A stretch of 64,000 nt of DNA from Synechococcus sp. JA-3-3Ab (lineage in GTDB: Bacteria; Cyanobacteriota; Cyanobacteriia; Thermostichales; Thermostichaceae), in contig NC_007775.1 of NCBI RefSeq assembly GCF_000013205.1, positions 124,001 through 188,000 of the forward strand, in the 5' to 3' direction. Positions 6,472 through 43,083 of this stretch are shown here, in pieces. The notes under the pieces were generated by a model. The model had not been told where the DNA came from. It worked only from the letters and a program-made list of their open reading frames with translations, and searched no databases. The position numbers and the translations under genes are program-made. The stretch's first letter is position 1. Each line of letters starts with the position of its first letter.

Positions 6472-6864
6472 AAATCTGTACCCTAAATCACATTTACAGT
6501 CTAGTAAACTTGGGCTTTTTCCCAAGACACCCCCAGGACAGTTCTCAATCTGTCACCAAATCCAACCCCTTCCCCTTGCGGGGAAAAGGTAGGGATCAAC
6601 CCTACTCCCGGAAAAGCCTGAACTCATGAGGTTTTCAAGGTGCGCTCGCGAGGAAGTACCGAGACTTCCCGCCACAGATGTTAACCTCGCTTCCCCGAAT
6701 AAGCGCAACTCAGAAAATTCGCTCTTTTGGGGACGTCATGCTGCATTTTCCCGCCAATCCCGGCAAAAGCTACTAGATCTTATGGCACCCGCAAAAAAAG
6801 CTAGCAATGGCTCCCCCCGATGGATCGGCCCCAAAACTTTACAATCTCGGCTAAGCTGAGAACC
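6472..6864. other. Non-coding gap with CRISPR-repeat-like hairpin
   Basis: About 390 bp without a convincing gene, downstream of cas2 on the cas strand. The one structured item is the hairpin described separately at 6563-6600. I saw no second copy and no regularly spaced repeats here, so no array remains. Confidence 0.6.
6563..6600. repeat. Solitary CRISPR-repeat-like sequence
   Basis: A 38-base stretch with perfect stem TTCCCC (6570-6575) and GGGGAA (6580-6585) around TTGC, followed by AAGGTAGGGATCAAC. The CTTGCGGGGAAA core and the ATCAAC end resemble cyanobacterial CRISPR repeats that end in ATTGAAAC/ATCAAC. It lies 265 bp from cas2. Only one copy is present, so this is a degenerate array remnant at best. 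Confidence 0.3.
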
Positions 6865-17728: not shown

Positions 17729-18415
17729 ATGGTGTCGCTGCGGGGGGTGAGCAAGGTCTTTCCCAACGGCAACTGGGTTTTCCGAGATGTGAACTTGGAG
17801 GTGCGCCGCGGCGAGTTTGTGTTCGTAACCGGGGTGTCGGGGGCGGGCAAGTCCACCCTGCTACGGCTGCTCTACGGGGCCGAACAGGCCACCGAGGGCA
17901 CGGTGATAGTGGATGGGGTGTGTCTGTTTTCTTCGGAAGGTCGGCGACGGCCCTACCGCATCCCGCCCCGCCCCCTAGCAATGTTGCGGCGGCGCTTGGG
18001 GGTGGTTTTTCAAGACTATCGCCTCTTGGCCAATCGCACCCTGGCGGAAAATGTGGCCTTTGTGCTGCGCGCCCAGGGACTTTCCCCAGCAGAGATTCGC
18101 CGCCGCCTGGGGCCGACCTTGAAGATGGTGGGGCTGACCGAGAAGCGGGATTGCTTCCCGGACGAGCTTTCGGGAGGGGAGCAACAGCGCCTCAGCTTGG
18201 CCCGCGCCATTGTCAACATGCCCGTCTTGTTGCTGGCCGACGAGCCGACGGGAAATCTGGATCGGGAAAACTCCCTATTGGTGCTCCAAATCCTGGAGCG
18301 GCTCAATTCTTTTGGCGTGACGATCCTCATGACTAGCCACGACCCCTATCTGGTGGAGCGGGCCGGCCACCGGGTGGTGCGCATGGAGGGAGGGCGCCTG
18401 TATGATCTGCGCTGA
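17729..18415 (+). CDS. ftsE: Cell-division ABC ATPase FtsE
   Basis: ATPase of the FtsEX complex that controls septal peptidoglycan hydrolases. Walker A GVSGAGKST, Q-loop VFQDYRLL, signature LSGGEQQRLSLARA, Walker B LLLADEPTGNLD and switch TSHDPYLVERAGHRVV are all present. FtsE-specific features are the short 228-residue length and DEPTGNLD. ATG 17729 begins the conserved MVSLRGVSKVFPNG; the frame stays open a further 53 codons upstream. The usual partner ftsX is not next door but 8.5 kb downstream at 26950, after an inserted cassette. The last ~90 bp of the gene are repeated just before ftsX. Confidence 0.93.
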   Translation: MVSLRGVSKVFPNGNWVFRDVNLEVRRGEFVFVTGVSGAGKSTLLRLLYGAEQATEGTVIVDGVCLFSSEGRRRPYRIPPRPLAMLRRRLGVVFQDYRLLANRTLAENVAFVLRAQGLSPAEIRRRLGPTLKMVGLTEKRDCFPDELSGGEQQRLSLARAIVNMPVLLLADEPTGNLDRENSLLVLQILERLNSFGVTILMTSHDPYLVERAGHRVVRMEGGRLYDLR

Positions 18416-18416
18416 G
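18327..18416 (+). repeat. Direct repeat: ftsE 3' end, left copy
   Basis: About 90 bp encoding MTSHDPYLVERAGHRVVR...LYDxR-stop, matched by 26768-26858 with roughly ten mismatches by eye. The two copies bound the metE/ABC-transporter cassette. Confidence 0.85.
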
Positions 18417-18591
18417 GGCTGCCGGGATCCCTACTTTGCTCTTCACAAGCTTTTTGAGATCCCGGAGAGCAGCTTTGCCGGTTGCATCAGCAGACCGTAG
18501 GCCCTAAGCCAGCCGCATCAGCACAACAGCGGCACCGCCCGCGGCGACTTGTCAAGCCAGCCCGACCAGTTACATCAGCGGGTCGTGGGCC

Positions 18592-20856
18592 TTACTCGCG
18601 CAGACCCTCAGGTTGGGTTTCCAGAAGCTCCTCCCTTAGCTGATGAGCGGCAGCCACCATATTTTTCAGTGCGGGGATCACCTCCTCCCAGCGGCGGGTC
18701 TTGAGGCCACAATCGGGATTAACCCAAGTTTGCTCCACAGGCAAGTGGGCCAGTCCTGTGCGCAGCTGCTGCAGGATTTGCTCAACGCTCGGCACCGCAG
18801 GGCTGTGGACATCGTAAACGCCGTTGCCCACCTGGTGACGATACCCAGCCTGGGCAATTTGCAGCAGGGTTTTGTTGTTGCTGCGGCTGTTTTCAATGGA
18901 AAGCACGTCGGCATCCAGCCGCTCAATGTGCTCGATGATGTCCCCAAACTCTGAGTAGCACATGTGGGTGTGAATCTGGGTTTCCGGCTTGGCCCCGCCG
19001 GTAGCTAGGCGAAAGGCATCCACTGCCCAGCTGAGGTATTCTGGCCAGCGTTCTTTTTTCAGAGGTAGCCCCTCCCGCAGTGCCGGCTCATCCACTTGCA
19101 CCATCACCGCTCCAGCCGCTTCCAGATCTGCCACTTCGGCTCTCAAGGCCAGGGCAATCTGCAAAGCCTGCTCCCGCCGGGGAATATCAACACGGGGAAA
19201 GGACCAGTTGAGCATAGTCACTGGCCCCGTGAGCATGCCTTTCACCGGCTTTTGGGTGTGGGACTGGGCTACTTGGAATTCCCGCACTGTCATGGGTTGG
19301 GGGCGAACCACGTCGCCGTAGAGAATGGGAGGGCGCACGCAGCGGCTGCCGTAACTCTGCACCCAGCCGTGTTCAGTGAAGGCAAAGCCTTCCAGCTTCT
19401 GGGCAAAGTACTCCACCATGTCGGTGCGCTCAAATTCTCCATGCACCAACACATCCAGGCCAATCTCTTCTTGAATGCGGATGCACTTGGCAATCTCAGC
19501 GTCAATGGCTGCTTCGTACTCCGCCTGCGAAACCTCCCCTCTTTTGTACTTAGCTCGCCACTGCCGCACCTCTGGAGTTTGGGGGAAGGAGCCAATGGTG
19601 GTGGTGGGCAAAGGTGGTAGCTGAACCTGCCGACTTAGGCGCTGCTCGTAGGGCAGGAATCGCTCGAAGTCCTGGAGCTTGAGGTTGGCCAAAGCCTGGC
19701 GCACTTGGGGGTTGGGGGGGCTAAACTGCGCAAAGCTCTGCCACTGCTGCTGGATTTCCGCCTGCTGGGCAGCAGTGTCTTCGCCGTTGAGGGCTCGCGC
19801 CAGGAGAGCTACTTCGGCCAGCTTCTGTTCGGCAAAGCTGAGGACATTTCTGAGGGGTTCCGGCAACTGGGCTTCCAGAGCAGCGTCGTGGGGCACAAAT
19901 TGCAACGAAGCGGAAGGCTGCACCCGTAGGTTGGGAGCTACCCCCTGCAGCTCCCGCAGGCTGGCCAAGACGGTCTCAGGCTGAACCTTCCAGACATTCC
20001 GAGCGTCCACTACGCCAGCACCTAGGATCTGGTCAGCCGGAAAGCCATAGGTTCTTACCAGATCCAGGGTGTGGCCACGGGTAAAGTCAAGGCTAATGCC
20101 GGCCACCGGCAGTTGCACCACCCAGGGGTAAGTCTCCCCCAGGTCATCGAAGTAGGTGACCAAGTGGACACGGATCCCGGCGGTTGCCAACTGGCGGTAG
20201 CTCATTTCCACAGCTTCCCGCAGGCCACTTCCCTGGCTGGTAACCAAAATGGGATCGTGAATCTGGACTTCTGGGATCCCCAGCTGTTTTAACTCCTGGA
20301 GGAGATCCCGGTACAGAGGAAGGAGCTTTTCCAAGTCCGCCCGCAGATCCCCAGATCGCTGGCTAAGGCAGAGCAAAGTCACTGGACTGAGGACAACGGG
20401 GCTGGTGCGCTCCCCTAGGATCCCTTGGGCCCGCCGAACTCTTTCCAAAAAATCCCCAAAGTTAGGACTGGGATCGGCTTCCGGCTCAATTTCGGGTACC
20501 AAGTAGTGGTAGTTGGTGTCAAACCACTTGGTCATTTCCAAAGCCGGCAGGCCCTCCCGCCCCCGCGCCATGGCAAAGTAGCGGTCTAAACCCGACAGAC
20601 CTCGGAACCGAGAGGGGATCAGCCCCAGCCAGGTGGCCCAGTCCAGTACATGGTCGTAGAGAGTCTGATCCCCTACCGCAATGTGATCAATCCCAGCTTG
20701 TAGCTGAGTCTGCCAGGCTTGAGTCTCCAAATCCCAAAAGGTAGCCAGCAGAGCCTCTGACCCTAGGGCACCACTCCAAAAGCCTTCCAAAGCTTTTTTG
20801 AGCTCGCGGCGCTTGCCCATGCGGGCATACCCCAATGTCATGGTTTGTGCAGTCAT
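18592..20856 (-). CDS. metE: Cobalamin-independent methionine synthase MetE, copy 1
   Basis: Zinc enzyme that methylates homocysteine from 5-methyltetrahydropteroyl-glutamate without B12. The N-terminal domain starts TLGYARMGKRRELKK. The C-terminal barrel begins at LPTTTIGSFPQTPEVRQWR, with LVHGEFERTDMVEYFAQ, MVQVDEPALREGLPLKK, the zinc ligands in THMCYSEFGDI and WVNPDCGLKTR. Length 754 residues is typical. ATG 20856 aligns exactly with the start of copy 2. A cobalamin riboswitch lies about 430 bp upstream, so B12 should switch it off. It is divergent from an ABC importer and closely similar to copy 2 at 40140. Confidence 0.95.
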   Translation of the reverse strand: MTAQTMTLGYARMGKRRELKKALEGFWSGALGSEALLATFWDLETQAWQTQLQAGIDHIAVGDQTLYDHVLDWATWLGLIPSRFRGLSGLDRYFAMARGREGLPALEMTKWFDTNYHYLVPEIEPEADPSPNFGDFLERVRRAQGILGERTSPVVLSPVTLLCLSQRSGDLRADLEKLLPLYRDLLQELKQLGIPEVQIHDPILVTSQGSGLREAVEMSYRQLATAGIRVHLVTYFDDLGETYPWVVQLPVAGISLDFTRGHTLDLVRTYGFPADQILGAGVVDARNVWKVQPETVLASLRELQGVAPNLRVQPSASLQFVPHDAALEAQLPEPLRNVLSFAEQKLAEVALLARALNGEDTAAQQAEIQQQWQSFAQFSPPNPQVRQALANLKLQDFERFLPYEQRLSRQVQLPPLPTTTIGSFPQTPEVRQWRAKYKRGEVSQAEYEAAIDAEIAKCIRIQEEIGLDVLVHGEFERTDMVEYFAQKLEGFAFTEHGWVQSYGSRCVRPPILYGDVVRPQPMTVREFQVAQSHTQKPVKGMLTGPVTMLNWSFPRVDIPRREQALQIALALRAEVADLEAAGAVMVQVDEPALREGLPLKKERWPEYLSWAVDAFRLATGGAKPETQIHTHMCYSEFGDIIEHIERLDADVLSIENSRSNNKTLLQIAQAGYRHQVGNGVYDVHSPAVPSVEQILQQLRTGLAHLPVEQTWVNPDCGLKTRRWEEVIPALKNMVAAAHQLREELLETQPEGLRE

Positions 20857-21285
20857 GTTGTGTGCCATCCCAAATACTGAGTTTTCTAATTTTCCTGCGT
20901 TCAATTCGCCCTCAACTGGGATCCCGCCCGCCAAGGAAGAAACCGGCTGTTCCTCTCTTGCCTCTGGAACCCCAACAAAACACTGCCTTTTGCGCAAAAA
21001 AGATACTCAACGCAGCCAGCGATCGCAGTGGCTACTTGCCAGCCACCAATTGAAGTCAGGAAGCCTGACATCTCACTCTTTCCTTCGCGTAGGCGGGCTG
21101 TAGATCTTGATAGATCTTGGTGCAACAGCACCCAAAATTTACTCTCTCCCGGCCAACTGGCTCAGAGTCTTGCTTGGGTTCTTGGACTTATTTCTACTGC
21201 TGAGGAGTACCGAAAGCTTGTGGGAGCAACGCCGGGAAAATGCTCAGGATAACGAAAGCAGAAACGAGCTAAAGCCAAGACAGTT
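20857..21285 (-). other. Long metE-1 leader between riboswitch and start
   Basis: About 430 bp of transcribed leader if transcription starts above the riboswitch. I see no open frame I would defend and no clear terminator; TAGATCT occurs twice in tandem near 21101-21117. The expression platform should lie at its upstream end. Confidence 0.5.
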
Positions 21286-21505
21286 ACCATCTGTACCTCG
21301 CAGATGTTGTGAAGTTTAGAAAAACCATCGGCGGGCATTCTGACTGACACGGTTTTGGGGGACAAGATCTGGATCGGCAGCGAATGACTCTAGAGATTTG
21401 CTGCAGAACTTCTCCTAAACCGGATCACAGCTGCGGGACAGCGGCAGATTCTCACTGCTCTTTCCCCGTTTCCTCTGGCGGCTGATCCCCGTCAGAACCG
21501 ATAGC
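21286..21505 (-). promoter_or_regulatory. Cobalamin (AdoCbl) riboswitch upstream of metE-1
   Basis: On the minus strand one reads CTGACGGGGATCAGC, GGGGAAAGAGCAGTGAGAA, then CTGCCGCTGTCCCGCAGCTG with TGATCCGG, a variable arm, and the B12-box-like GTCAGAATGCCCGCCGAT (21327-21344). This is the expected order of cobalamin riboswitch core elements. A hairpin with loop CGAGGTA (21288-21306) follows and is conserved in copy 2. A riboswitch before B12-independent methionine synthase makes biological sense: B12 represses it when MetH can work. Confidence 0.85.
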
Positions 21506-21760
21506 TGAGCTACATCGTATCACGGAGTTCAGAGACGGGAGTAGAGTGCTTCAATCATCACCAAGCCAGCAGCCTTTGGAGCTACCAGACCTCACCTTTC
21601 ACCCAGCGGTCTTGCAGGAAGTCATCGGAATCCTCTAAACATCCTCCCCCCCTGCATTGCTCTCAAGATAAGGCAGTGATAGCTTAGCTGCCATAAGTCT
21701 TGTCCAGGAGGCAAGGGGGTTTGCTCCTTTTTGCTGAAAAAGCGACAGATCGGGGTTTCT

Positions 21761-23386
21761 ATGGCATCAAGCTTAAAAGTAACTGTGTGGTCTGTGGGCC
21801 TCTTCTTGCTGAGCCAGATGTGGGCTGGATGCGCTCAGAATGCTGCTAAGCGGACAGCTTTCGATCCAAAGCTAGCAGGATCCAGCGATCAAATCGTGCT
21901 GGCCATTGGAGGGGAAAGGGAAGAAGGATTTGATCCCACCCTGGGCTGGGGACGTTACGGTTCGCCTTTGTTCCAAAGCACTCTGCTGCGGCGGGACGAG
22001 AACCTTGAGATTGTAAACGACCTGGCGACTGGCTACACTGTCAGCCAAGATGGCCTAACCTGGACGGTAACCCTACGAAAGGATGCAGTCTTCTCCGATG
22101 GAAAACCTGTCACAGCAGCGGACGTGGCTTACACCTTTAACCAAGCAGCTCGGAGTGGTGGTCTGGTCGACCTAACCGCCCTAAAGGAAGCAGTAGCTAT
22201 CGACACTCATACGGTGGAGCTGCGGCTGCAAAAACCCCAAAGTACTTTTGTCAACCGCCTCATCACCTTGGGTATCGTGCCTCAACATGCCCACGGGCCT
22301 GATTATGCTCGCAAACCCATTGGCTCTGGCCCCTACCGACTGGTGCAGTGGGATGAGGGGCAACAACTGATTGTGGAGGCAAATCCCTTATATTACGGCC
22401 AGACTCCTGGCATTCGGCGGCTGGTTTTCCTTTTCCTGGAGGAGGATGCAGCCTTTGCAGCAGCCCGAGCCGGACAGGTACACGTGGTTAGCGTGCCTCA
22501 GTCTTTGGCTAAGCAAACTGTTAAGGGCATGAAGCTTCACGCCATTCCCAGTGTGGATAACCGAGGGCTGATGTTCCCCTTTCCCCCTAGAACCGGTGCG
22601 ACAACCCCAAAGGGATACCCCATCGGCAACGATGTGACTTCTGACTTGGCGATTCGCAAGGCGGTCAACTTCGCCATTGACCGACAGGCGCTGGTGGATG
22701 GAGTCCTAGAAGGCTACGGATCCCCTGCCTATGGCCCAGTCAGCGGTTTGCCCTGGGAAGAGCCGACCGCCAAGATTGAGGACAACAATCCAGACCTGGC
22801 CCGTCAGATTCTAGCTGAGGGAGGCTGGAGCGATAAAGATGGGGATGGGGTAGTGGAAAAAAACGGGCTGCGGGCTGAGTTCACCGTGCTCTACCCGGCC
22901 AACGACAGTATTCGCCAAGCCCTGGCCCTAGCTGTTGCAGAAATGCTGCGGCCTGTGGGCATCCGAGTCAATGTCGAGGGCAAAAGTTGGGATGACATCA
23001 TTCCGCTCATGCACAGCAACGTGGTGCTGTTTGGCTGGGGCAGCCATGACCCAACTGAGATGTACAACCTCTACCACAGCAAAGCGGCCCAGGGGGGATT
23101 TTTCAATGCCGGCTACTATGCCAACCCGTTTGTGGATCGAATGCTGGATCTGGCTATGGAGGCCCCCTCTGAAGCTGAAGCTATCCCCTTCTGGCGGGCA
23201 GCCCAGTGGGATGGAAAGCAAGGCTTTACTGCCAAAGGAGATGCAGCCTGGGCTTGGTTGGTAAACCTGGATCATACCTACTTTGTCCACGAGTGCTTGG
23301 ATATAGGCCAGCCGCAGGTACAGCCTCATGGCCATGGTTGGCCAATCACAGCCAACATCACCCGTTGGAAATGGACGTGCAACTGA
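21761..23386 (+). CDS. ABC transporter substrate-binding lipoprotein (nickel/peptide type, SBP family 5)
   Basis: Extracellular binding protein. The N-terminal signal ends in a lipobox-like MWAGC (Cys lipidation near residue 25 from ATG 21761). The family-5 hallmark is LTWTVTLRKDAVFSDGKPVTAADVAYTF, with IGSGPYRLV and AIRKAVNFAIDRQALVDGV later. The C-terminal His cluster in PQVQPHGHGWPITANITRW resembles nickel/metallophore-type binding proteins more than plain oligopeptide ones, so metal-complex uptake is my preferred but unproven reading. A TTG at 21731 is an alternative start. First gene of a five-gene transporter operon. Confidence 0.85.
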   Translation: MASSLKVTVWSVGLFLLSQMWAGCAQNAAKRTAFDPKLAGSSDQIVLAIGGEREEGFDPTLGWGRYGSPLFQSTLLRRDENLEIVNDLATGYTVSQDGLTWTVTLRKDAVFSDGKPVTAADVAYTFNQAARSGGLVDLTALKEAVAIDTHTVELRLQKPQSTFVNRLITLGIVPQHAHGPDYARKPIGSGPYRLVQWDEGQQLIVEANPLYYGQTPGIRRLVFLFLEEDAAFAAARAGQVHVVSVPQSLAKQTVKGMKLHAIPSVDNRGLMFPFPPRTGATTPKGYPIGNDVTSDLAIRKAVNFAIDRQALVDGVLEGYGSPAYGPVSGLPWEEPTAKIEDNNPDLARQILAEGGWSDKDGDGVVEKNGLRAEFTVLYPANDSIRQALALAVAEMLRPVGIRVNVEGKSWDDIIPLMHSNVVLFGWGSHDPTEMYNLYHSKAAQGGFFNAGYYANPFVDRMLDLAMEAPSEAEAIPFWRAAQWDGKQGFTAKGDAAWAWLVNLDHTYFVHECLDIGQPQVQPHGHGWPITANITRWKWTCN

Positions 23387-24372
23387 GGTCAGTTCTGCTG
23401 TTTCTGGCTTATAAGCTGACTCGGCTGGGGTTGCTGCTGGCGGCTGTGGCAGTCCTGACGTTTGCCCTGCTCAGCTTCTCCCCTGTTGATCCCGTACAAG
23501 CCTATGTAGGGGCCGACATGCTGCAGATCAGCCCAGCCCAACGAGACCTGATTGCCCAGCGTTGGGGGCTGGATCAGCCCATGCTGCTTCGCTTTGGGAA
23601 CTGGCTTGGGCAGATGGTTCAAGGCAACTGGGGCACCTCAATGGTGTTCAATCAGCCAGTGGTGCAGGTCATTCAACAGCGGTTTGAGCTATCGCTGCCC
23701 TTACTGGCAATTGCCTGGCTGCTTTCCGGTTTCCTGGGAGTGGGGTTGGGGGTTTTGGCCGCAGCGTTTCAGGGCACTTGGGTTGACCGCGGTATTCGTC
23801 TTTACGCCTACACCCTCGCCTCTTCTCCCCCTTTCTGGGTGGCGCTGCTACTCTTGATCGCGTTTTCGGTAGAGCTGGGTCTAACACCTATCTGTTGCGC
23901 CGCGCCACCTGGCGCGTTGGCGGAGGAGGTGACTTTTTGGCAGCGCTTACACCACTTGCTCTTGCCTGCTTTCACCCTAACTTTCATCGGCGTTGCCAAC
24001 ATCACCTTGCACACTCGTCAGAAGCTCATTGACGTGTTGCACAGCAACTATGTGCTGTTTGCTCGTGCCCAGGGGGAAAGCCTGGCTGGGATCCTGTGGT
24101 ACCACGGCTTGCGGAATATCTTGCTGCCTGCGCTGACGCTGCAATTTGCCTCCTTTGGGGAACTGTTTGGTGGCTCAGTGTTAGTGGAACAGGTGTTTGC
24201 TTATCCAGGACTGGGACAAGCAACGGTACAGGCAGCTTTGCGCAGTGATGTGCCTCTGTTGGTGGGCATTGTGTTTTTCAGCGCCTTGTTTGTCTATGCC
24301 GGCAATACCCTAGCTGACCTGTCCTACCAGATTGTCGATCCACGCATTCGCCTTGGCGGGAGGATAGGATGA
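23371..24372 (+). CDS. ABC transporter permease 1 (NikB/DppB-like)
   Basis: Inner-membrane permease, 333 residues. The N-terminal signature is typical of DppB/NikB permeases (RLGLLLAAVAVLTFALLSFSPVDPVQAYVGAD), followed by several membrane helices. The EAA-like coupling loop includes FARAQGESLAGILWYHGLRNILLPALTL. The start ATG lies 16 bp inside the end of the binding-protein gene, implying translational coupling. Confidence 0.88.
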   Translation: MDVQLRSVLLFLAYKLTRLGLLLAAVAVLTFALLSFSPVDPVQAYVGADMLQISPAQRDLIAQRWGLDQPMLLRFGNWLGQMVQGNWGTSMVFNQPVVQVIQQRFELSLPLLAIAWLLSGFLGVGLGVLAAAFQGTWVDRGIRLYAYTLASSPPFWVALLLLIAFSVELGLTPICCAAPPGALAEEVTFWQRLHHLLLPAFTLTFIGVANITLHTRQKLIDVLHSNYVLFARAQGESLAGILWYHGLRNILLPALTLQFASFGELFGGSVLVEQVFAYPGLGQATVQAALRSDVPLLVGIVFFSALFVYAGNTLADLSYQIVDPRIRLGGRIG

Positions 24373-25262
24373 TCCCTTTTGCATCGCCTCGTGTTGCTGC
24401 TGCTGATGCCGATGGGGGGATGAAATTCTCAGAGTCCTCTGTCAAAGGAGAGCGCAGGCGGCAGACTCTGTGGGCAATTGGACTGTGTGCTTTTTTTTTG
24501 GTGTCTATCCTCTGCAGCGCTGGGCTTATCGGCGATACCGGACTGAGCCCGAACCTAACTCAGCGGAATCAGCCTCCTTCCCTGGCCCATCCCTTCGGCA
24601 CCGACTGGCTGGGGCGGGATATGCTGGCCCGATCCTTGCACGGGATGTCCCTTAGTCTGTGGGTAGGCATGCTGGCTGCCGCCGTCAGCGTGGTGATCGC
24701 CGCTGTTTTGGGTTTGGTGGGTGGCACGGTGGGAGGCTGGGTGGATGCCTCGATCTGCTGGATGATTGACCTATGTTTCAGCCTGCCTCACCTGGTGGTG
24801 CAGATCCTTATAGCTTTTGCTGTCGGCGGCGGAGTTCGGGGAGTCATTGTTGCCGTTGCCCTCACCCACTGGCCCAGCCTAGCGCGCCTGGTGCGGGCCG
24901 AGGTGTTACAGGTCAGCAGTTCTGACTATGTCCAGAGTTCTTACCGACTGGGCCGCTCTTCCCTCTGGGTTGCCCGCTACCATATGATGCCTCACATTTT
25001 GCCCCAGCTCCTAGTGGGACTTATTCTGCTGTTTCCCCACGCCATTTTGCACGAAGCAGCCCTCTCATTCATTGGGGTAGGTATTTCGCCGCACCTACCG
25101 GCCATCGGCATTATTCTGGCCGAATCCATGCGCCACCTCTCCACCGGCTACTGGTGGCTGGGGGTTATGCCTGGACTGCTGCTGCTGCTGTCGGTCAAGG
25201 CTTTTGACTGGCTGGGAGAAAACCTGCAGGCCCTTCTCAATCCGCGTACGGCTCAGGAGTAG
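24369..25262 (+). CDS. ABC transporter permease 2 (NikC/DppC-like)
   Basis: Second membrane subunit, 297 residues, beginning at an ATG that overlaps the previous stop (ATGA). DppC-type features are HPFGTDWLGRDMLARSLHGMSLSLWVG and the EAA-like region RLVRAEVLQVSSSDYVQSSYRLG, followed by HMMPHILPQLL. It should pair with permease 1 to form the channel. Confidence 0.88.
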   Translation: MIPFASPRVAAADADGGMKFSESSVKGERRRQTLWAIGLCAFFLVSILCSAGLIGDTGLSPNLTQRNQPPSLAHPFGTDWLGRDMLARSLHGMSLSLWVGMLAAAVSVVIAAVLGLVGGTVGGWVDASICWMIDLCFSLPHLVVQILIAFAVGGGVRGVIVAVALTHWPSLARLVRAEVLQVSSSDYVQSSYRLGRSSLWVARYHMMPHILPQLLVGLILLFPHAILHEAALSFIGVGISPHLPAIGIILAESMRHLSTGYWWLGVMPGLLLLLSVKAFDWLGENLQALLNPRTAQE

Positions 25263-25266
25263 GGAC

Positions 25267-26196
25267 ATGTTGGTGGTCTCCGGCCTAAACATTAGGTTCA
25301 GCCGATACGAGCGGGGGCTGCGCCGCCGCTACCTTCAGGTGATTACAGATCTGGATCTGGAGGTTAAGGCAGGGGAGGTGGTGGCAGTGGTGGGGGCCAG
25401 CGGATCGGGCAAAAGTTTGCTGGCCCATGCCCTCTTGGGTCTTTTGCCAGAGAACGCTACCCTGCGCGGTACTCTCCTATTTCAGGGGCAGCCCTTGACC
25501 CCTGAGCGGTGTAGGCAACTGCGCGGCAAGGCCATTGCTCTCATCCCCCAGTCTGTGGACTACCTGGATCCCCTCATGCAAGTAGGATCCCAGGTACAGC
25601 GGGTAGCTCGGCTCAGCGGTGCCTCCCAAGGCGAGGCCCGTAGAGCAGTGAGCCGCATCTTTGCCCGCTATAGCTTGCCGCCGGGAACAGAGGGCCTCTA
25701 CCCTTTCCAGCTCTCCGGAGGCATGGCACGGCGGGTGCTGTTATCGACGGCGGCAGTTAGCAGAGCCAAGCTGGTGATAGCCGACGAGCCCACGCCAGGC
25801 TTGGACGCGGAGGTGGTGGCTGAGACCCTTGCCCATCTGCGGGAGCTGGCCCAGGAGGGCCGAGGCGTTATGTTGATTACACACGATATTCAGGCGGCGT
25901 TGTCGGTGGCAGATCGAGTGGCAGTCTTCTATGCGGGCACTACAGTCGAGTTGGCCTCGGCTCAGGATTTCGAAAGGGGAAACTTGCGCCACCCCTACAC
26001 TCAAGCTCTGTGGCGATCCCTGCCCCAAAATGAGTTTGCTCCCCTGCCGGGCAACCAGCCTGACCCTGAGGCACTGCCTGCGGGTTGTTTGTTTGGGGAT
26101 CGCTGCCCCTGGGCAAGTGAAATCTGTCGAGCTGAGCGTCCGCCTCTGCGGGCGGTTGGAGGAGGGTGGGTGAGGTGTATCCATGCTCAAGGGTGA
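25267..26196 (+). CDS. ABC transporter ATP-binding protein (NikD/DppD-like)
   Basis: Nucleotide-binding subunit, 309 residues. Walker A GASGSGKS, Q-loop IPQSVDYLDP, signature LSGGMARRVLLS, Walker B LVIADEPTPGLD and H-loop ITHDIQAAL are present. The C-terminal oligopeptide-type extension with GCLFGDRCPWASEICRAERP (Cys-containing) is intact, unlike its partner. ATG 25267 follows permease 2 by 4 bp. Confidence 0.9.
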   Translation: MLVVSGLNIRFSRYERGLRRRYLQVITDLDLEVKAGEVVAVVGASGSGKSLLAHALLGLLPENATLRGTLLFQGQPLTPERCRQLRGKAIALIPQSVDYLDPLMQVGSQVQRVARLSGASQGEARRAVSRIFARYSLPPGTEGLYPFQLSGGMARRVLLSTAAVSRAKLVIADEPTPGLDAEVVAETLAHLRELAQEGRGVMLITHDIQAALSVADRVAVFYAGTTVELASAQDFERGNLRHPYTQALWRSLPQNEFAPLPGNQPDPEALPAGCLFGDRCPWASEICRAERPPLRAVGGGWVRCIHAQG

Positions 26197-26857
26197 GCAT
26201 CTCTGGTTTCGCTATGGACGGCATCTGCCTTGGGTGGTGCAAGATCAGACCCTTCAAGTAGAACTTGGGGAAGTCGTAGGGCTGATGGCTCCCTCTGGTT
26301 TTGGCAAAACTACTCTGGCCAAGTTGCTGGCGGGCTACCTTACCCCCAGCCAAGGTCGGGTGAGTGTGGCAGGGCAGCCTTTGCCTCGGCGAGGGTACTG
26401 CCCAGTGCAGCTTGTCTTTCAACATCCAGAGCAGGCCGTTAACCCCCACTGGCGCATAGCTCAGGTCTTGCGGGAAGGGCCTCCTCCCCAGCCAGAGGTT
26501 CTCCACACCTTAGGCATTTCCCCCAGTTGGCTCAACCGCTATCCCCATGAGCTAAGCGGGGGAGAATTGCAGCGGGTTGTCATCGCCCGGGTTCTCAACC
26601 CACAAACTCGCTATTTGATTGCAGATGAGATGACAGCCATGCTCGACGCCAATACCCAAGCCCTGATCTGGCAAGCTGTCTTGGCCTATGGGCGGGCACA
26701 TCAGATGGGGCTTTTGGTCATCAGTCATGATCGCTTTCTCCTGGAACGGCTCTGCAGCCGCTACGTCATCATGACCAGCCACGACCCCTATCTGGTGGAG
26801 CGGGCGGGTCACCGGGTGGTGCGCCTGGAGGGAGGACATCTGTACGATATGCGCTGA
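26183..26857 (+). CDS. ABC ATP-binding protein (NikE/DppF-like) with a fused FtsE C-terminus
   Basis: Second ATPase of the importer, 224 residues. It has Walker A APSGFGKTT, signature LSGGELQRVVIARV, Walker B LIADEMTAMLD and H-loop ISHDRFLLERL. After CSRYVI the protein continues as MTSHDPYLVERAGHRVVRLEGGHLYDMR, a near copy of the FtsE end, so a second H-loop-like TSHD follows the first. The native C-terminal extension of DppF-type ATPases is missing. The gene starts 14 bp inside the previous one. Activity is plausible because the lost part lies outside the ATPase core. Confidence 0.88.
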   Translation: MLKGEHLWFRYGRHLPWVVQDQTLQVELGEVVGLMAPSGFGKTTLAKLLAGYLTPSQGRVSVAGQPLPRRGYCPVQLVFQHPEQAVNPHWRIAQVLREGPPPQPEVLHTLGISPSWLNRYPHELSGGELQRVVIARVLNPQTRYLIADEMTAMLDANTQALIWQAVLAYGRAHQMGLLVISHDRFLLERLCSRYVIMTSHDPYLVERAGHRVVRLEGGHLYDMR

Positions 26858-26858
26858 G
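26768..26858 (+). repeat. Direct repeat: ftsE 3' end, right copy
   Basis: Matches 18327-18416 at about 90 % by eye, in the same orientation. It lies 91 bp before ftsX, the place where a native ftsE end would be expected. Confidence 0.85.
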
Positions 26859-26949
26859 GGGCTCCCGCCAGAGCGGCGCAGCCCCATCTTCCTCTCCACA
26901 ACTGCGACGCTAAAGCTTAGAGCGGGCAAACTCTTGGACGGTAGGCAGC

Positions 26950-28387: not shown

Positions 28388-28792
28388 CTATCTGGGCGAT
28401 GCCTGCTGCTCAACATACTTCTTCAACTCCTCAACGGTGACCCCACCACAAGAGGCAACAAAATAGGCCCCTGTCCAAAATACAGGCTTGCTGTAGAACC
28501 GTGCCACCTCTGTGGCGAACTCTTTGCGAATCAACCGGCTGGAGACTGTTTTCAGGTTGTTCACCAGCTTCGAGACCTGAACATCCGGCGGAAAACTCAC
28601 CAACAGATGCACATGGTCCGCCTCACCGTCGAACTCCACCAAGGAACAGCGCCACTTTTGGCAGGTCGCTCGAAATATATCTTCCAGCCTCTGCAACATT
28701 GGAGCAGTTATCACCCGACGACGGTACTTTGTCACCAGCACCAAGTGGATTTGTAGGCTGTAAACAGAACGATGGCCTATGTTGTAGCTCAT
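28388..28792 (-). CDS. tnpA: IS200/IS605 transposase TnpA (Y1, HUH)
   Basis: A 134-residue single-strand transposase. The HUH motif is H60-V-H62 in EADHVHLLVSFPP, and the catalytic tyrosine is Y126 in ELKKYVEQQ. N-terminal IHLVLVTKYRR is typical. ATG 28792 is chosen; an upstream TTG-led frame would run into the tnpB start region. It is intact and should be active. Confidence 0.92.
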   Translation of the reverse strand: MSYNIGHRSVYSLQIHLVLVTKYRRRVITAPMLQRLEDIFRATCQKWRCSLVEFDGEADHVHLLVSFPPDVQVSKLVNNLKTVSSRLIRKEFATEVARFYSKPVFWTGAYFVASCGGVTVEELKKYVEQQASPR

Positions 28793-28816
28793 TGCGCTAA
28801 ATGCTAGAACCGTCTC

Positions 28817-30088
28817 ATGATTATCACCCACGAGTACCGGATCCTGCCCAGCGACGACCAAGCCGCTCTGATGACCGAGTGGCTGGAATTGTTGCGGCGG
28901 CAGTGGAACGACGCTCTGGGGCAGAGACTGGACTGGCTGACCGCAACCCGTTGCCCAATTGACCGCTGCAGTCTTGTCTCTTGTCCGTTGCCTGTGTCAG
29001 AACCCCCGCTGGAGCCGAATTATTATCGGCAGGCGGGATCCCTCAAACAAATCAAGCAACTGTTCCCGGCCTACCGGGGCATTTACGCCGAGGTGCTGCA
29101 GCAAAACTTGATGCGGCTGGACAAGGCGTGGAAAGCGTGGCGGGAGCCGGATAGCACAGGCAAGCGGCGGGGGCGGCCTCGCTTCAAAAAAGCGGGGGAG
29201 TTGAGATCCTTCACATTCCCCCGCATCAATTGCCCCAAGGCGGGAGCGCATCTGGAAGGGGAGACTCTGCGGCTGAGCAAGATTGGCTCGATGCCTGTGG
29301 TGCTGCACCGCCCCTTACCAGAGGGGTTTGTGCCCAAAACCTGCACAGTGGTGCGCAAGGCCGATGGGTGGTATGTCTGCATTACTTTGGAGGACAAAAG
29401 CGTCCCTTCCCCAGAGCCTGTGCCGATCAAAAAGGCGGTGGGCATTGATGTGGGATTGGATAGGTTTCTCACCACCAGCGATGGGGAGGTGGTGCCTATC
29501 CCGCGGCACTACCGCCGAGCTCAAAAGCACTTGGCCCGACAGCAGCGGCAACTGAGCCGCAAAGTGAAGGGGTCCGCCAACTGGAAGAGACAAGCCACGA
29601 AAGTTGCTTGTTTGCAGTTGCACGTTGCCCGACAACGCAAAGCGTTCCACTACCAAGTGGCGCACTGGCTGGTGGAGCAATACGACCTGTTGGTGGTGGA
29701 GGATCTCAACGTCCGAGGGCTGGCACGGACTCGGTTGGCTAAATCGATTTTGGATGCGGCTTGGGGACGATTTCTTGACATTCTGACAGCAGTGGCGGTC
29801 AAACGCGGCAAACAGGTGTTGAGAGTGGATCCCCGTGGTACGTCCCAAAATTGTTGTGTTTGTGAGGAGCGTGTTCCCAAGACCTTGTCGGAACGGGTGC
29901 ATGATTGCCCCCGTTGCGGGTCGTGGGACAGAGACTTGAACGCTGCTATCGAGATTTTGAAGCGAGGACTCAGGGCGGTGGGACTGCCGCTCTCTGGCTG
30001 TGGAGGATCCTGGTTTACCAGTCCGTTGAAGCAGCAACTCCGGGAAGTGATTCTCGGAAGCTCCCGTCTACAGCCCGTCAGGGCCTAG
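28817..30088 (+). CDS. tnpB: IS605 OrfB / TnpB RNA-guided nuclease
   Basis: A 423-residue TnpB. RuvC catalytic residues are visible: D in GIDVGLDRF (about 210), E in VVEDLNVRGL (about 293) and D in SWDRDLNAAIEI (about 371). A zinc ribbon CxxC...CPRC lies between the last two. Family knowledge: TnpB cleaves DNA guided by an RNA from the element's right end. All parts needed are present. The last codons run into the right-end hairpin and overlap the convergent MscS-like gene by 11 bp. Confidence 0.92.
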   Translation: MIITHEYRILPSDDQAALMTEWLELLRRQWNDALGQRLDWLTATRCPIDRCSLVSCPLPVSEPPLEPNYYRQAGSLKQIKQLFPAYRGIYAEVLQQNLMRLDKAWKAWREPDSTGKRRGRPRFKKAGELRSFTFPRINCPKAGAHLEGETLRLSKIGSMPVVLHRPLPEGFVPKTCTVVRKADGWYVCITLEDKSVPSPEPVPIKKAVGIDVGLDRFLTTSDGEVVPIPRHYRRAQKHLARQQRQLSRKVKGSANWKRQATKVACLQLHVARQRKAFHYQVAHWLVEQYDLLVVEDLNVRGLARTRLAKSILDAAWGRFLDILTAVAVKRGKQVLRVDPRGTSQNCCVCEERVPKTLSERVHDCPRCGSWDRDLNAAIEILKRGLRAVGLPLSGCGGSWFTSPLKQQLREVILGSSRLQPVRA

Positions 30089-40139: not shown

Positions 40140-42383
40140 CTAGGTGGCCTGGAGCTCCTCCCTTAGACGCTGAGTGGCTGCCACCATGTTTTTCAGGGCA
40201 GGGATCACTTCCTCCCAGCGGCGGGTTTTTAGGCCGCAGTCGGGGTTGACCCAGGTTTGCTCTAGCGGCAAGTGGGCCACTCCCAGGCGCAGTTGCCGGA
40301 GAATCTGCTCGGTGTCGGGCACCGCCGGGCTGTGAACGTCGTAAACGCCGTTGCCTACCTGGTGGCGATAGCCGGCTTGGGCAATCTGCAGCAAGGTTTT
40401 GTTGCTGCTGCGGCTGTTTTCGATGGAGAGGACGTCGGCATCCAGACGCTCGATGTGCTCGATGATGTCCCCGAACTCCGAGTAGCACATGTGGGTGTGG
40501 ATCTGGGTTTCGGGCTTGGCGCCAGCGGTAGTCAGGCGGAAGGCCTCCACCGCCCAACTTAAGTATTCTGGCCAGCGCTCTTTTTTCAAGGGCAGCCCCT
40601 CTCGCAGCGCTGGCTCGTCCACCTGCACCATCGCGGCTCCGGCAGCTTCCAAGTCGGCCACCTCTGCCCGCAGGGCCAGGGCAATTTGCAGGGCCTGCTC
40701 GCGACGGGAAACGTCAACGCGGGGGAAGGACCAGTTGAGCATGGTTACCGGCCCTGTCAGCATCCCCTTGACCGGCTTTTGAGTCAGAGATTGGGCCACC
40801 TTGAACTCCCGCACCGTCATGGGGCGAGGGCGAGACACGTCGCCGTAGAGAATGGGGGGACGCACGCAGCGGCTGCCATAGCTCTGCACCCAGCCGTGCT
40901 CGGTAAAAGCAAAGCCCTGCAGTTGTTGGGCGAAGTATTCCACCATGTCGGTGCGCTCGAACTCACCATGCACCAGCACATCCAGGCCAATTTCTTCTTG
41001 GATGCGGATGCACTTGGCAATTTCGGCGTCGATGGCAGCTTCGTATTCGGCCTGGGAGATCTCGCCCTTTTTGTACTTGACCCGCCACTGCCGGACTTCG
41101 GGGGTTTGGGGAAAAGAGCCGATGGTGGTGGTCGGCAGCGGTGGCAGCTTGACCTGCCGGCCTATACGCTGCTCGTAGGGAAGGGAGCGCTGGAAGTCCT
41201 GCGCCGTCAGGTTAGCCAAGGCCTGGCGCACTGTAGAGTTGGGGGGATTGAAGTCCTGGAAGGCCTGCCACTGCTGCTCCAGCTCCTGCTGCTGGGCGGC
41301 GGTGTCTTCGCCGTTGAGGGTGCGGGCCAGCAGAACCACCTCGGCCAGCTTCTGCTCGGCAAAGCTGAGAACATTGCGCAAAGGCTCTGGCAGGTGGGTT
41401 TCCAGAGCAGCGTCGTGGGGCACAAATTGGAGCGAGCAAGAAGGCTGCACCCGCAGGTTGGGGGCTAGGGCTTGCAGCTCTTGCAGAGTGGCCAGAACGG
41501 CTTTGGGCTGGATCTGCCAGATGTTGCGCCCGTCCACTACCCCCGCCCCCAGGATCTTGTCGGCGGGGAAGCCGTGGGCTCTGACCAGTTCCAGGTTGTG
41601 GCCGCGGGTGAAGTCGAGGCTGAGGCCAGCTACCGGAAGCTCCACCGCCCAGGGGTAAGTCTCCCCCAAGTCGTCAAAGTAGGTAACCAGGTGGAGAGGG
41701 ATCCCCACGCTTGCAAGCCAGCGGTAGGTCTGCTCCACCGCTTCCTGAAGACTTTTGCCTTCGCTGGTCACCAAGATGGGCTCATGGACTTGCACTTCCC
41801 GGATCCCCAGGCGCTGCAGCTCCTGCAAGAGTTCTCTGTAGAGAGGAAGCAGCTTCTCCAGATCCCCCCGCAACTCGCCAGAGCGCTGGCTTAGAGCAAG
41901 AAGGGTAACCGGACTGAGGAGGACGGGGCTGGTGCGGTTTCCTAGGATCCCTTGCGCCCGTCGCACCGTGGCCAGGAAGTCGTCGAAATGGGCCTGAGGG
42001 ATCGCGTCGGCCTCAATTTCCGGCACCAGGTAGTGGTAGTTGGTGTCAAACCACTTGGTCATTTCCAAGGCCGGCAGCCCCTCCTGCCCCCGCGCCATGG
42101 CAAAGTAGCGCTCCAGGCCTGATAAGCTCTGAAACCGGGAGGGAATCAGCCCCAGCCAGGTGGCCCAGTCCAAAACGTGGTCGTAGAGGGTTTGATCTCC
42201 TACGGCAATGTGGTCGAGGTTGGCCTGTCGCTGGGTTCGCCAGGCCTGACTCTCCAGATCCTGCAGCGTCGCCAACAAGGCTTCCGCCTCCAGGGTGCCG
42301 CCCCAAAAGGCCTCCAGGGCTTTCTTCAGCTCGCGGCGCTTGCCCATGCGGGCATAGCCTAGGGTTTGAGTTTCAATGGCCAT
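40140..42383 (-). CDS. metE: Cobalamin-independent methionine synthase MetE, copy 2
   Basis: Second full-length MetE, 747 residues, with the same landmarks as copy 1: TLGYARMGKRRELKKALEAFW, LPTTTIGSFPQTPEVRQWR, LVHGEFERTDMVEYFA, MVQVDEPALREGLPLKK, THMCYSEFGDI and WVNPDCGLKTR. The two proteins are similar over their entire length and both look active. ATG 42383 is chosen. Its own cobalamin riboswitch lies about 380 bp upstream, with tRNA-Arg directly beyond. Having two B12-repressed metE copies suggests a dosage benefit or adaptation to fluctuating B12 or temperature. Confidence 0.95.
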   Translation of the reverse strand: MAIETQTLGYARMGKRRELKKALEAFWGGTLEAEALLATLQDLESQAWRTQRQANLDHIAVGDQTLYDHVLDWATWLGLIPSRFQSLSGLERYFAMARGQEGLPALEMTKWFDTNYHYLVPEIEADAIPQAHFDDFLATVRRAQGILGNRTSPVLLSPVTLLALSQRSGELRGDLEKLLPLYRELLQELQRLGIREVQVHEPILVTSEGKSLQEAVEQTYRWLASVGIPLHLVTYFDDLGETYPWAVELPVAGLSLDFTRGHNLELVRAHGFPADKILGAGVVDGRNIWQIQPKAVLATLQELQALAPNLRVQPSCSLQFVPHDAALETHLPEPLRNVLSFAEQKLAEVVLLARTLNGEDTAAQQQELEQQWQAFQDFNPPNSTVRQALANLTAQDFQRSLPYEQRIGRQVKLPPLPTTTIGSFPQTPEVRQWRVKYKKGEISQAEYEAAIDAEIAKCIRIQEEIGLDVLVHGEFERTDMVEYFAQQLQGFAFTEHGWVQSYGSRCVRPPILYGDVSRPRPMTVREFKVAQSLTQKPVKGMLTGPVTMLNWSFPRVDVSRREQALQIALALRAEVADLEAAGAAMVQVDEPALREGLPLKKERWPEYLSWAVEAFRLTTAGAKPETQIHTHMCYSEFGDIIEHIERLDADVLSIENSRSSNKTLLQIAQAGYRHQVGNGVYDVHSPAVPDTEQILRQLRLGVAHLPLEQTWVNPDCGLKTRRWEEVIPALKNMVAATQRLREELQAT

Positions 42384-42760
42384 AAGGTACCTTGTCCTGA
42401 ATCGAATTCGGTAATTGAGGTTGCCGCCAGTTGTCATCCAACCTAGGCAGCAAGAGATGGCCGCCGACATGCCTATCGGTGGCATCCCGGCAGAAGGTTT
42501 TCCCTAGGCCAGGAAACCTGCCGGAGCTGTCAAGGCGTTCCTTCACCCTGGCGGCTTGCCCACTCTGCACAGGGGGATGCCCAGAGGACTCTTTTGTGCA
42601 ACCAAAGCGAGCAACCGTCCTCCTAGCTGCCCCTGAGCTATCTGCTCAGCTCTCTTGTCCGCGCTTTTGACTGAGTGCCTACGATCCGAGAGCGTCGAAA
42701 ATCCGTAAGCAGGCCGATGAAAAAACTTCGAGACGGGAACGGGCTAACGTCAAAATGGGG
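42384..42760 (-). other. Long metE-2 leader
   Basis: About 375 bp between the riboswitch and the metE-2 start. I see no gene; there are GC-rich inverted segments around 42480-42530 but no T-rich terminator. Leaders of similar length in both copies suggest a shared control layout. Confidence 0.5.
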
Positions 42761-42982
42761 AGCATATCTGTACCTCGCAGATATGGTGAACTGTGGAAAA
42801 ACCGCCGGCGGGCATTCTGACTTGCTCAGTTTTGGAGGGGCTGGCTTGCGTTTCAAGGCCTCTTGCAACAACGAACTAGGGATCCCAAGTCCAAAACCGG
42901 CTCACAGCTGCGGGACAGCGGCAGATTCTCACTGCACTTTCCCCGTTGCCTCTGACGGCTGATCCCCGTCAGAACCGACAGT
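42761..42982 (-). promoter_or_regulatory. Cobalamin (AdoCbl) riboswitch upstream of metE-2
   Basis: Same ordered elements as copy 1 on the minus strand: hairpin CTGACG...CGTCAG, GGGGAAAGTGCAGTGAGAA, CTGCCGCTGTCCCGCAGCTG with TGAGCCGG, a variable arm containing GGGATCC, and the B12-box-like GTCAGAATGCCCGCCGG (42803-42819). The following hairpin CATATCTG/CAGATATG with loop CGAGGTA (42763-42785) is longer than in copy 1 but keeps the loop, so loop and pairing are conserved while the stem changes. Confidence 0.85.
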
Positions 42983-43008
42983 AGACTTTATCCTATCACT
43001 GGTTTTAG

Positions 43009-43083
43009 CGGGACTGGGCGGATTTGAACCGCCGACCTAGCGCTTAGGAGGCGCTTGCTCTATCCAGGCTGAGCTACAGCCCC
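43009..43083 (-). tRNA. tRNA-Arg (anticodon CCT)
   Basis: A cloverleaf is readable on the minus strand: acceptor GGGGCTG/CAGTCCC, D arm GCTCAGCCTGGATAGAGC, anticodon stem AGCGC/GCGCT with loop CTCCTAA (anticodon CCT), and T arm GGCGG-TTCGAAT-CCGCC. CCA is not encoded. It reads AGG codons. It lies between moaE and the metE-2 riboswitch. Confidence 0.95.

Follow-up and report, generated by a model that had tools for sequence, protein, structure and literature searches.

A short open reading frame as the probable immediate target of cobalamin riboswitches upstream of cyanobacterial metE genes

Introduction

In the usual depiction, a cobalamin riboswitch acts directly on the gene that lies behind it. 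At the ppe2 locus of Mycobacterium tuberculosis, the riboswitch governs translation of an upstream open reading frame (uORF), uPPE2, on which the downstream gene depends, and the stop codon of the uORF overlaps the start codon of the gene (AUGA), so that the two are linked by termination-reinitiation (PMC11260477). The metE gene of the same organism is likewise preceded by a B12 riboswitch and a uORF, uMetE2, which is located inside the aptamer, in a P9-P10 extension, and suppresses MetE (PMC11260477). Among cyanobacteria, the riboswitch of Picosynechococcus PCC 73109 is described as B12-responsive in vivo in the section of PMC9964548 that cites Perez et al. 2016, with 6-fold regulation of a reporter in PCC 7002; a uORF is not mentioned in that section. 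According to two further reports, on iraD (PMC5574718) and on a Salmonella Mg2+ transporter (PMC8092293), whether a short ORF is translated influences how accessible a ribosome-binding site further downstream is; as presented there, the sensor is not a riboswitch, unlike in the cyanobacterial metE leaders.

Here we describe two cobalamin riboswitch-metE arrangements in a 64,000-nucleotide stretch of the genome of Synechococcus sp. JA-3-3Ab (hereafter, the window) and compare them with metE leaders of other cyanobacteria. Both share with the Rfam family RF00174 the B12-box aptamer, the full-length covariance-model match, and the position ahead of a B12-alternative gene in the same orientation. 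They differ in that the loop of the P13 hairpin holds the Shine-Dalgarno sequence of a short uORF, the enzyme gene following about 300 nt further downstream. A uORF start placed under riboswitch control as at ppe2 is found, at the level of sequence only, at 30 of 30 cyanobacterial metE loci. In contrast to ppe2, the uORF stop and metE are separated by 89-671 nt at the 29 loci where this was measured (305 nt for metE-1 and 295 nt for metE-2 of the window), and the candidate link is long-range RNA pairing. In contrast to the mycobacterial metE leader, the uORF lies downstream of the aptamer, has its Shine-Dalgarno in P13, and is expected to promote metE. Among the papers found in a library-limited literature search, none describes uORFs in cyanobacterial metE leaders.

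Results and discussion

Two cobalamin aptamers precede two metE genes

An Rfam cmscan search with the Cobalamin model (RF00174, clan CL00101; gathering score 31.5 bits) detected two aptamers in the window (Table 1), both located on the same strand as, and upstream of, a B12-related gene (metE-1 and metE-2, assigned by NF003556). Their B12 boxes read GTCAGTCAGAATGCCCGCC for metE-1, on the minus strand, and AAGTCAGAATGCCCGCC for metE-2. Judged by these matches, both aptamers are ordinary members of the known riboswitch family, and the metE-1 element is, as certainly as a sequence can tell, a genuine cobalamin riboswitch. The initial annotation, made from the letters alone, had proposed a cobalamin riboswitch with a B12-box-like segment upstream of metE, and both proposals hold. 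The interval that it gave, 21286-21505, overlaps the aptamer, but omits its first 12 nt and extends into the P13-like hairpin. The second aptamer-metE arrangement and the small ORF between aptamer and metE go beyond that annotation.

The start of metE-1 was placed at ATG 20856 by alignment of orthologues, an alternative ATG being present at 20868, and the proteins encoded by metE-1 and metE-2 are 84% identical. Four cobalamin riboswitches are present in the genome as a whole, a single contig of 2,932,766 bp; of the remaining two, one precedes a gene for a TonB-dependent receptor and the other a CbiX-like gene, both labelled by inspection of translated ORFs. An intact metH, encoding a MetH of 1219 amino acids, is present elsewhere in the genome. 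A B12 OFF switch on metE makes sense because the genome keeps this gene, and the B12-sparing logic of the initial annotation is supported by both the intact MetH and the genes behind the other two riboswitches. Were MetH lost, a B12-off switch on metE would be a paradox; such a loss was considered and rejected, as the full 1219-codon frame is present; the TGA noted inside metH is most likely its own stop. The predicted riboswitches of the window would bind a cobamide and repress metE; when a cobamide is available, MetE would be turned off and MetH used instead.

On the strand of the metE-2 aptamer, the end of a tRNA-Arg (CCU) gene (43008-43083) lies 13 nt ahead of the aptamer, which leaves no room for a promoter between them. 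Transcription of the metE-2 leader may start at the tRNA promoter, with tRNA processing freeing the leader.

Table 1. Positions in the window of the features discussed in the text.
Feature	Position	Strand	Evidence or detail
Cobalamin riboswitch aptamer of metE-1	21313..21517	-	RF00174, 53.0 bits, E 2.3e-10, full model 1-189
P13-like hairpin of metE-1, CATCTG-CGAGGTA-CAGATG	21288..21306	-	loop Shine-Dalgarno GAGGT 21295-21299
uORF of metE-1, 42 codons, MVTVLALARFCFRYPEHFPGVAPTSFRYSSAVEISPRTQARL	21162..21290	-	ATG 5 nt after GAGGT
Stretch between uORF stop and metE-1 start, 305 nt	20857..21161	-	sequence
metE-1, cobalamin-independent methionine synthase	18592..20856	-	PF01717/PF08267; NF003556 1001.9 bits; full-length
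Cobalamin riboswitch aptamer of metE-2	42790..42994	-	RF00174, 57.3 bits, E 1.4e-11, model 1-189
P13-like hairpin of metE-2, ATCTG-CGAGGTA-CAGAT	42766..42782	-	GAGGT at 42772-42776
uORF of metE-2, 28 codons, MLPILTLARSRLEVFSSACLRIFDALGS	42679..42765	-	ATG 7 nt after GAGGT
metE-2, metE-1 paralogue, full-length, start ATG 42383	40140..42383	-	above NCBIfam cut-off
Divergent intergenic stretch, aptamer to importer	21518..21760	.	sequence
Importer substrate-binding lipoprotein (SBP_bac_5, opp/nik type)	21761..23386	+	PF00496 266.8 bits
Importer: two permease and two ATPase genes	23371..26857	+	profile matches

The riboswitch-linked ribosome-binding site belongs to a uORF

Directly 3' of the metE-1 aptamer lies the hairpin TCTGCGAGGTACAGA, whose loop contains a Shine-Dalgarno sequence that is followed by an ATG. 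The claim that the riboswitch controls metE was therefore borne out only in part: the riboswitch is indeed located upstream of metE, but the ribosome-binding site linked to it is that of the uORF and not that of metE. The complementarity between L5 (GUG-N..AUC) and L13 (GAGGYAC) is limited to 3-4 nt, and P13 is present in all 30 metE leaders examined.

Our proposal is that the switch acts elsewhere than at the metE ribosome-binding site. The aptamer could dock the loop of the P13 hairpin by L5-L13 kissing, and this loop holds the Shine-Dalgarno of the uORF, with the ATG directly after. Without B12, the uORF would be translated, permitting expression of metE about 300 nt further on; with B12, the uORF would be shut and metE off. 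We mildly favor this chain, from riboswitch through uORF translation to metE, as the whole explanation of the locus. Its first link, the uORF as the immediate target of the riboswitch, is well supported by the sequence comparisons below; that the uORF is translated, that its translation has a positive effect on metE, and that a relay connects the two is what we infer. Should the uORF prove to be the first target, reporter designs, the engineering of B12-independent strains, and the annotation of riboswitches would all have to include it, and cyanobacteria would join mycobacteria as a second bacterial group with a B12 riboswitch working through a uORF.

The arrangement is present in all cyanobacterial metE leaders examined

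Among 390 genomes of the class that were searched, metE was found in 38, and 30 metE loci were fetched, these being the best-scoring ones and not mutually independent. Aptamer, hairpin, Shine-Dalgarno and ATG, and a short frame are present in all 30: the P13 with its Shine-Dalgarno loop is followed by an ATG at 5-8 nt, the uORFs have 13-42 codons, and the hairpin is located 160-800 nt upstream of metE where this was measured. Five plasmid-borne metE loci (Picosynechococcus, Nostoc, Calothrix) have the riboswitch and the hairpin. The metE leader of PCC 73109 contains the same hairpin and a uORF whose N-terminus is like those in the window; three Picosynechococcus uORFs, of 38 amino acids, begin with MITVLVLARSR, compared with MVTVLALARF and MLPILTLARSR in the window. 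Additional order and family searches gave only three more metE loci and did not extend the pattern: the first (50% identity) lacks the hairpin, the second is a partial gene, and at the third a hairpin is present at a different spacing. A scan of genome contigs with metE returned no cyanobacteria.

The hairpin TCTGCGAGGTACRGA, whose loop contains the Shine-Dalgarno, is present in 208 of the 390 cyanobacterial genomes. Outside metE, it fits most of the fetched HupE/UreJ, CbiM and DUF1636 gene starts (L160-L189). At the non-metE loci with the same hairpin, the hairpin-proximal ATG (GTG in two) starts a structural gene in 22 of 27 cases; by inspection of translations, these genes encode HupE/UreJ, CbiM, DUF1636 and TonB receptors. 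A uORF is also found at a minority of the non-metE loci, namely those of TonB receptors, one CbiM and one DUF1636-CobW.

This distribution bears on a simpler account, in which the locus is a plain cobalamin OFF riboswitch whose aptamer and P13 act through mRNA decay or a general lack of leader translation, the Shine-Dalgarno-ATG frame being a functionless relic of the use of the module at DUF1636 and hupE. The P13 stem often includes the ATG, which could persist for pairing. Moreover, on plasmids of Nostoc and Calothrix, riboswitch/uORF and metE are separated by a DUF1636 gene (L193 1638-2048, L194 1638-2048), which makes loss of a first gene plausible. Nor do the uORF peptides show codon-level conservation. 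In four groups of uORFs the differences at codon positions 1, 2 and 3 number 150/126/150, 21/21/14, 12/12/8 and 7/6/6, and one small group alone gives 2/6/10; selection of the uORF peptide for its amino acid sequence is not supported, as there is no excess of differences at the third position. As far as these alignments indicate, there is no conservation of the peptide as such, and the frame is not proven to be coding; if the uORF matters, it would be the act of translation and not the product that matters. Against a relic, the Shine-Dalgarno and ATG are kept at the proper spacing in 30 of 30 leaders, including those with the ATG outside the stem. As the ATG is outside the stem or not needed by it at about 9 of the 30 metE loci, stem pairing alone is insufficient to explain it. 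Together with the two observations that follow, the PCC 11901 mutation and the complementarity between uORF ends and metE ribosome-binding sites in several families, this leads us to regard the plain OFF switch as a rather unlikely account.

A spontaneous mutation of PCC 11901, from TT to AA at 320 bp upstream of metE, results in B12-independence; it lies in neither the predicted aptamer nor the predicted terminator and can be transferred with a cloned 1-kb fragment (PMC9313322). In the sister strains PCC 73109 and PCC 7117, the TT nearest to -320 falls in codons 9-10 of the uORF, which extends from about -349 to -233. By alignment, with the position transferred from the sister strains, this suppressor mutation would map inside the uORF. 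If the uORF is the target of the switch, the mutation would gain a simple candidate explanation.

In two further loci (L198, L202), riboswitch-uORF leaders stand ahead of internally deleted metE remnants; here metE decays and the leader persists.

In several lineages the end of the uORF can pair with the metE ribosome-binding site

A likely link between the uORF and metE in several cyanobacterial lineages would be pairing of the distal end of the uORF with the metE ribosome-binding site; a ribosome moving along the uORF would disrupt this pairing. In several families of the main clade, the uORF end and the ribosome-binding region of metE carry complementary sequences, GGUUGUAGCGUUCU and AGGACGCUACAAC, respectively. 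Against dinucleotide shuffles, the duplexes between uORF end and metE ribosome-binding site reach z-scores of -5.3 (L145), -5.1 (L137), -3.3 (L138), -2.7 (L142) and -2.4 (L141) in the main clade, and -3.6 (L152) in a separate family. In this separate family (L152 and L157), the same type of pairing is made with other letters, CCUCAACUCU with AGAGUUGAGG and CUCAACUCAA with UUGAGUUGAG. The helices between uORF end and ribosome-binding site comprise 18, 18 and 17 bp in L137, L142 and L141, respectively. When uORFs were swapped among leaders, the permuted pairings gave p = 0.0004, or p = 0.035 without the main clade. Holding the uORF open raised the predicted unpaired fraction of the metE site from 0.02 to 0.50 in L137 and from 0.12 to 0.58 in L138.

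The two leaders of the window itself do not form a significant duplex between uORF and ribosome-binding site (z +1.2 to +1.4); metE-1 has an 11-bp match covering the ribosome-binding site, with p about 0.1. Clear pairing is also absent in about 20 of 29 leaders. The pairing relay is thus supported in several lineages by complementarity, is not visible in the leaders of this genome, and is unproven. We put forward only tentatively, as one possibility, a two-step relay in which the riboswitch would gate a variable uORF whose ribosome would open a long-range helix and thereby unlock the ribosome-binding site of the distant metE. Rho is absent from cyanobacteria (PMC13289151), which removes the usual polarity route. 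Because of this absence, the relay could be a lineage-wide, Rho-free way for a translational riboswitch to govern a gene several hundred nucleotides downstream.

The same stretch of the leader could instead work by transcription attenuation, in which an untranslated uORF would let a terminator hairpin form just before metE, and a ribosome on the uORF would refold the leader and allow read-through. In L137, L141 and L145, hairpins such as GGCTGTTTCCC..GGGAAACGGCT followed by T5 are found a few tens of nucleotides upstream of metE, and a predicted terminator is mentioned by the authors of the PCC 11901 study (PMC9313322). In the window, however, a consensus scan of the stretch between the metE-1 uORF and its gene detected no terminator-like site, a looser scan giving one weak candidate in the near-identical leader of the relative G004; the metE-2 leader has few terminator-like sites, close to the level of shuffles, and 21 of 29 leaders have none in the looser scan. 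We therefore judge attenuation improbable.

A divergent importer shares a recently transferred island with metE-1

The initial annotation placed a divergent importer about 255 bp away, which agrees with the first importer gene starting at ATG 21761, 243 nt from the 5' end of the aptamer, and suggested that one intergenic region might coordinate metE with uptake of a metal or peptide. The divergent layout, found also in G004, would favor such coordination, but the riboswitch is encoded on the opposite strand, and its RNA lies outside the importer transcript. The relative G003 carries a riboswitch-metE unit without a neighbouring importer. No sigma-70-type promoter match was found in the divergent stretch. 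The importer is an ABC system of the opp/nik type that resembles nickel and oligopeptide systems, with all its scores under curated cut-offs. Its best profile matches, Opp2B with 236.8 of 350 bits and NikA with 104.6 of 393 bits, fall short of the equivalog cut-offs, so that it does not qualify as a nickel or cobalt importer (NikABCDE).

In the relatives G000 and G004, metE-1 and the importer share one 8.4-kb island between ftsE and ftsX, two genes that are adjacent in three other relatives. The window at about 18496-26745 is about 100% identical to the corresponding region of G004 (3,046,682 bp), whereas the flanks are only 74-93% identical, which indicates one recent transfer between two lineages and not independent conservation of the arrangement. 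As the importer is confined to one island, the back-to-back layout is not evidence for shared control, and we consider coordination through the importer very improbable.

In G003, the riboswitch-metE unit is likewise located between ftsE and ftsX, and the importer is absent. The 3' end of ftsE is duplicated in the window, with a 95-nt copy (89% identical) before ftsX (18324-18418 and 26766-26860), and the last importer ATPase ends in an in-frame fusion with this copy. In G003, ftsX is still preceded by a decayed copy of the ftsE 3' end (L013 8952-9058), without the importer, which indicates that such an island was once repeat-flanked there too, or that the importer was lost. An IS200/IS605-like pair, consisting of a small transposase and a TnpB-like protein, adjoins ftsX, and a close copy of this pair is located downstream of metH (window 28388-30088; L014 8713-10386). 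Elsewhere in the window, at 6564-6600, a CRISPR direct repeat of the Rfam family CRISPR-DR57 is matched with 53.7 bits, as a single copy above the gathering threshold.
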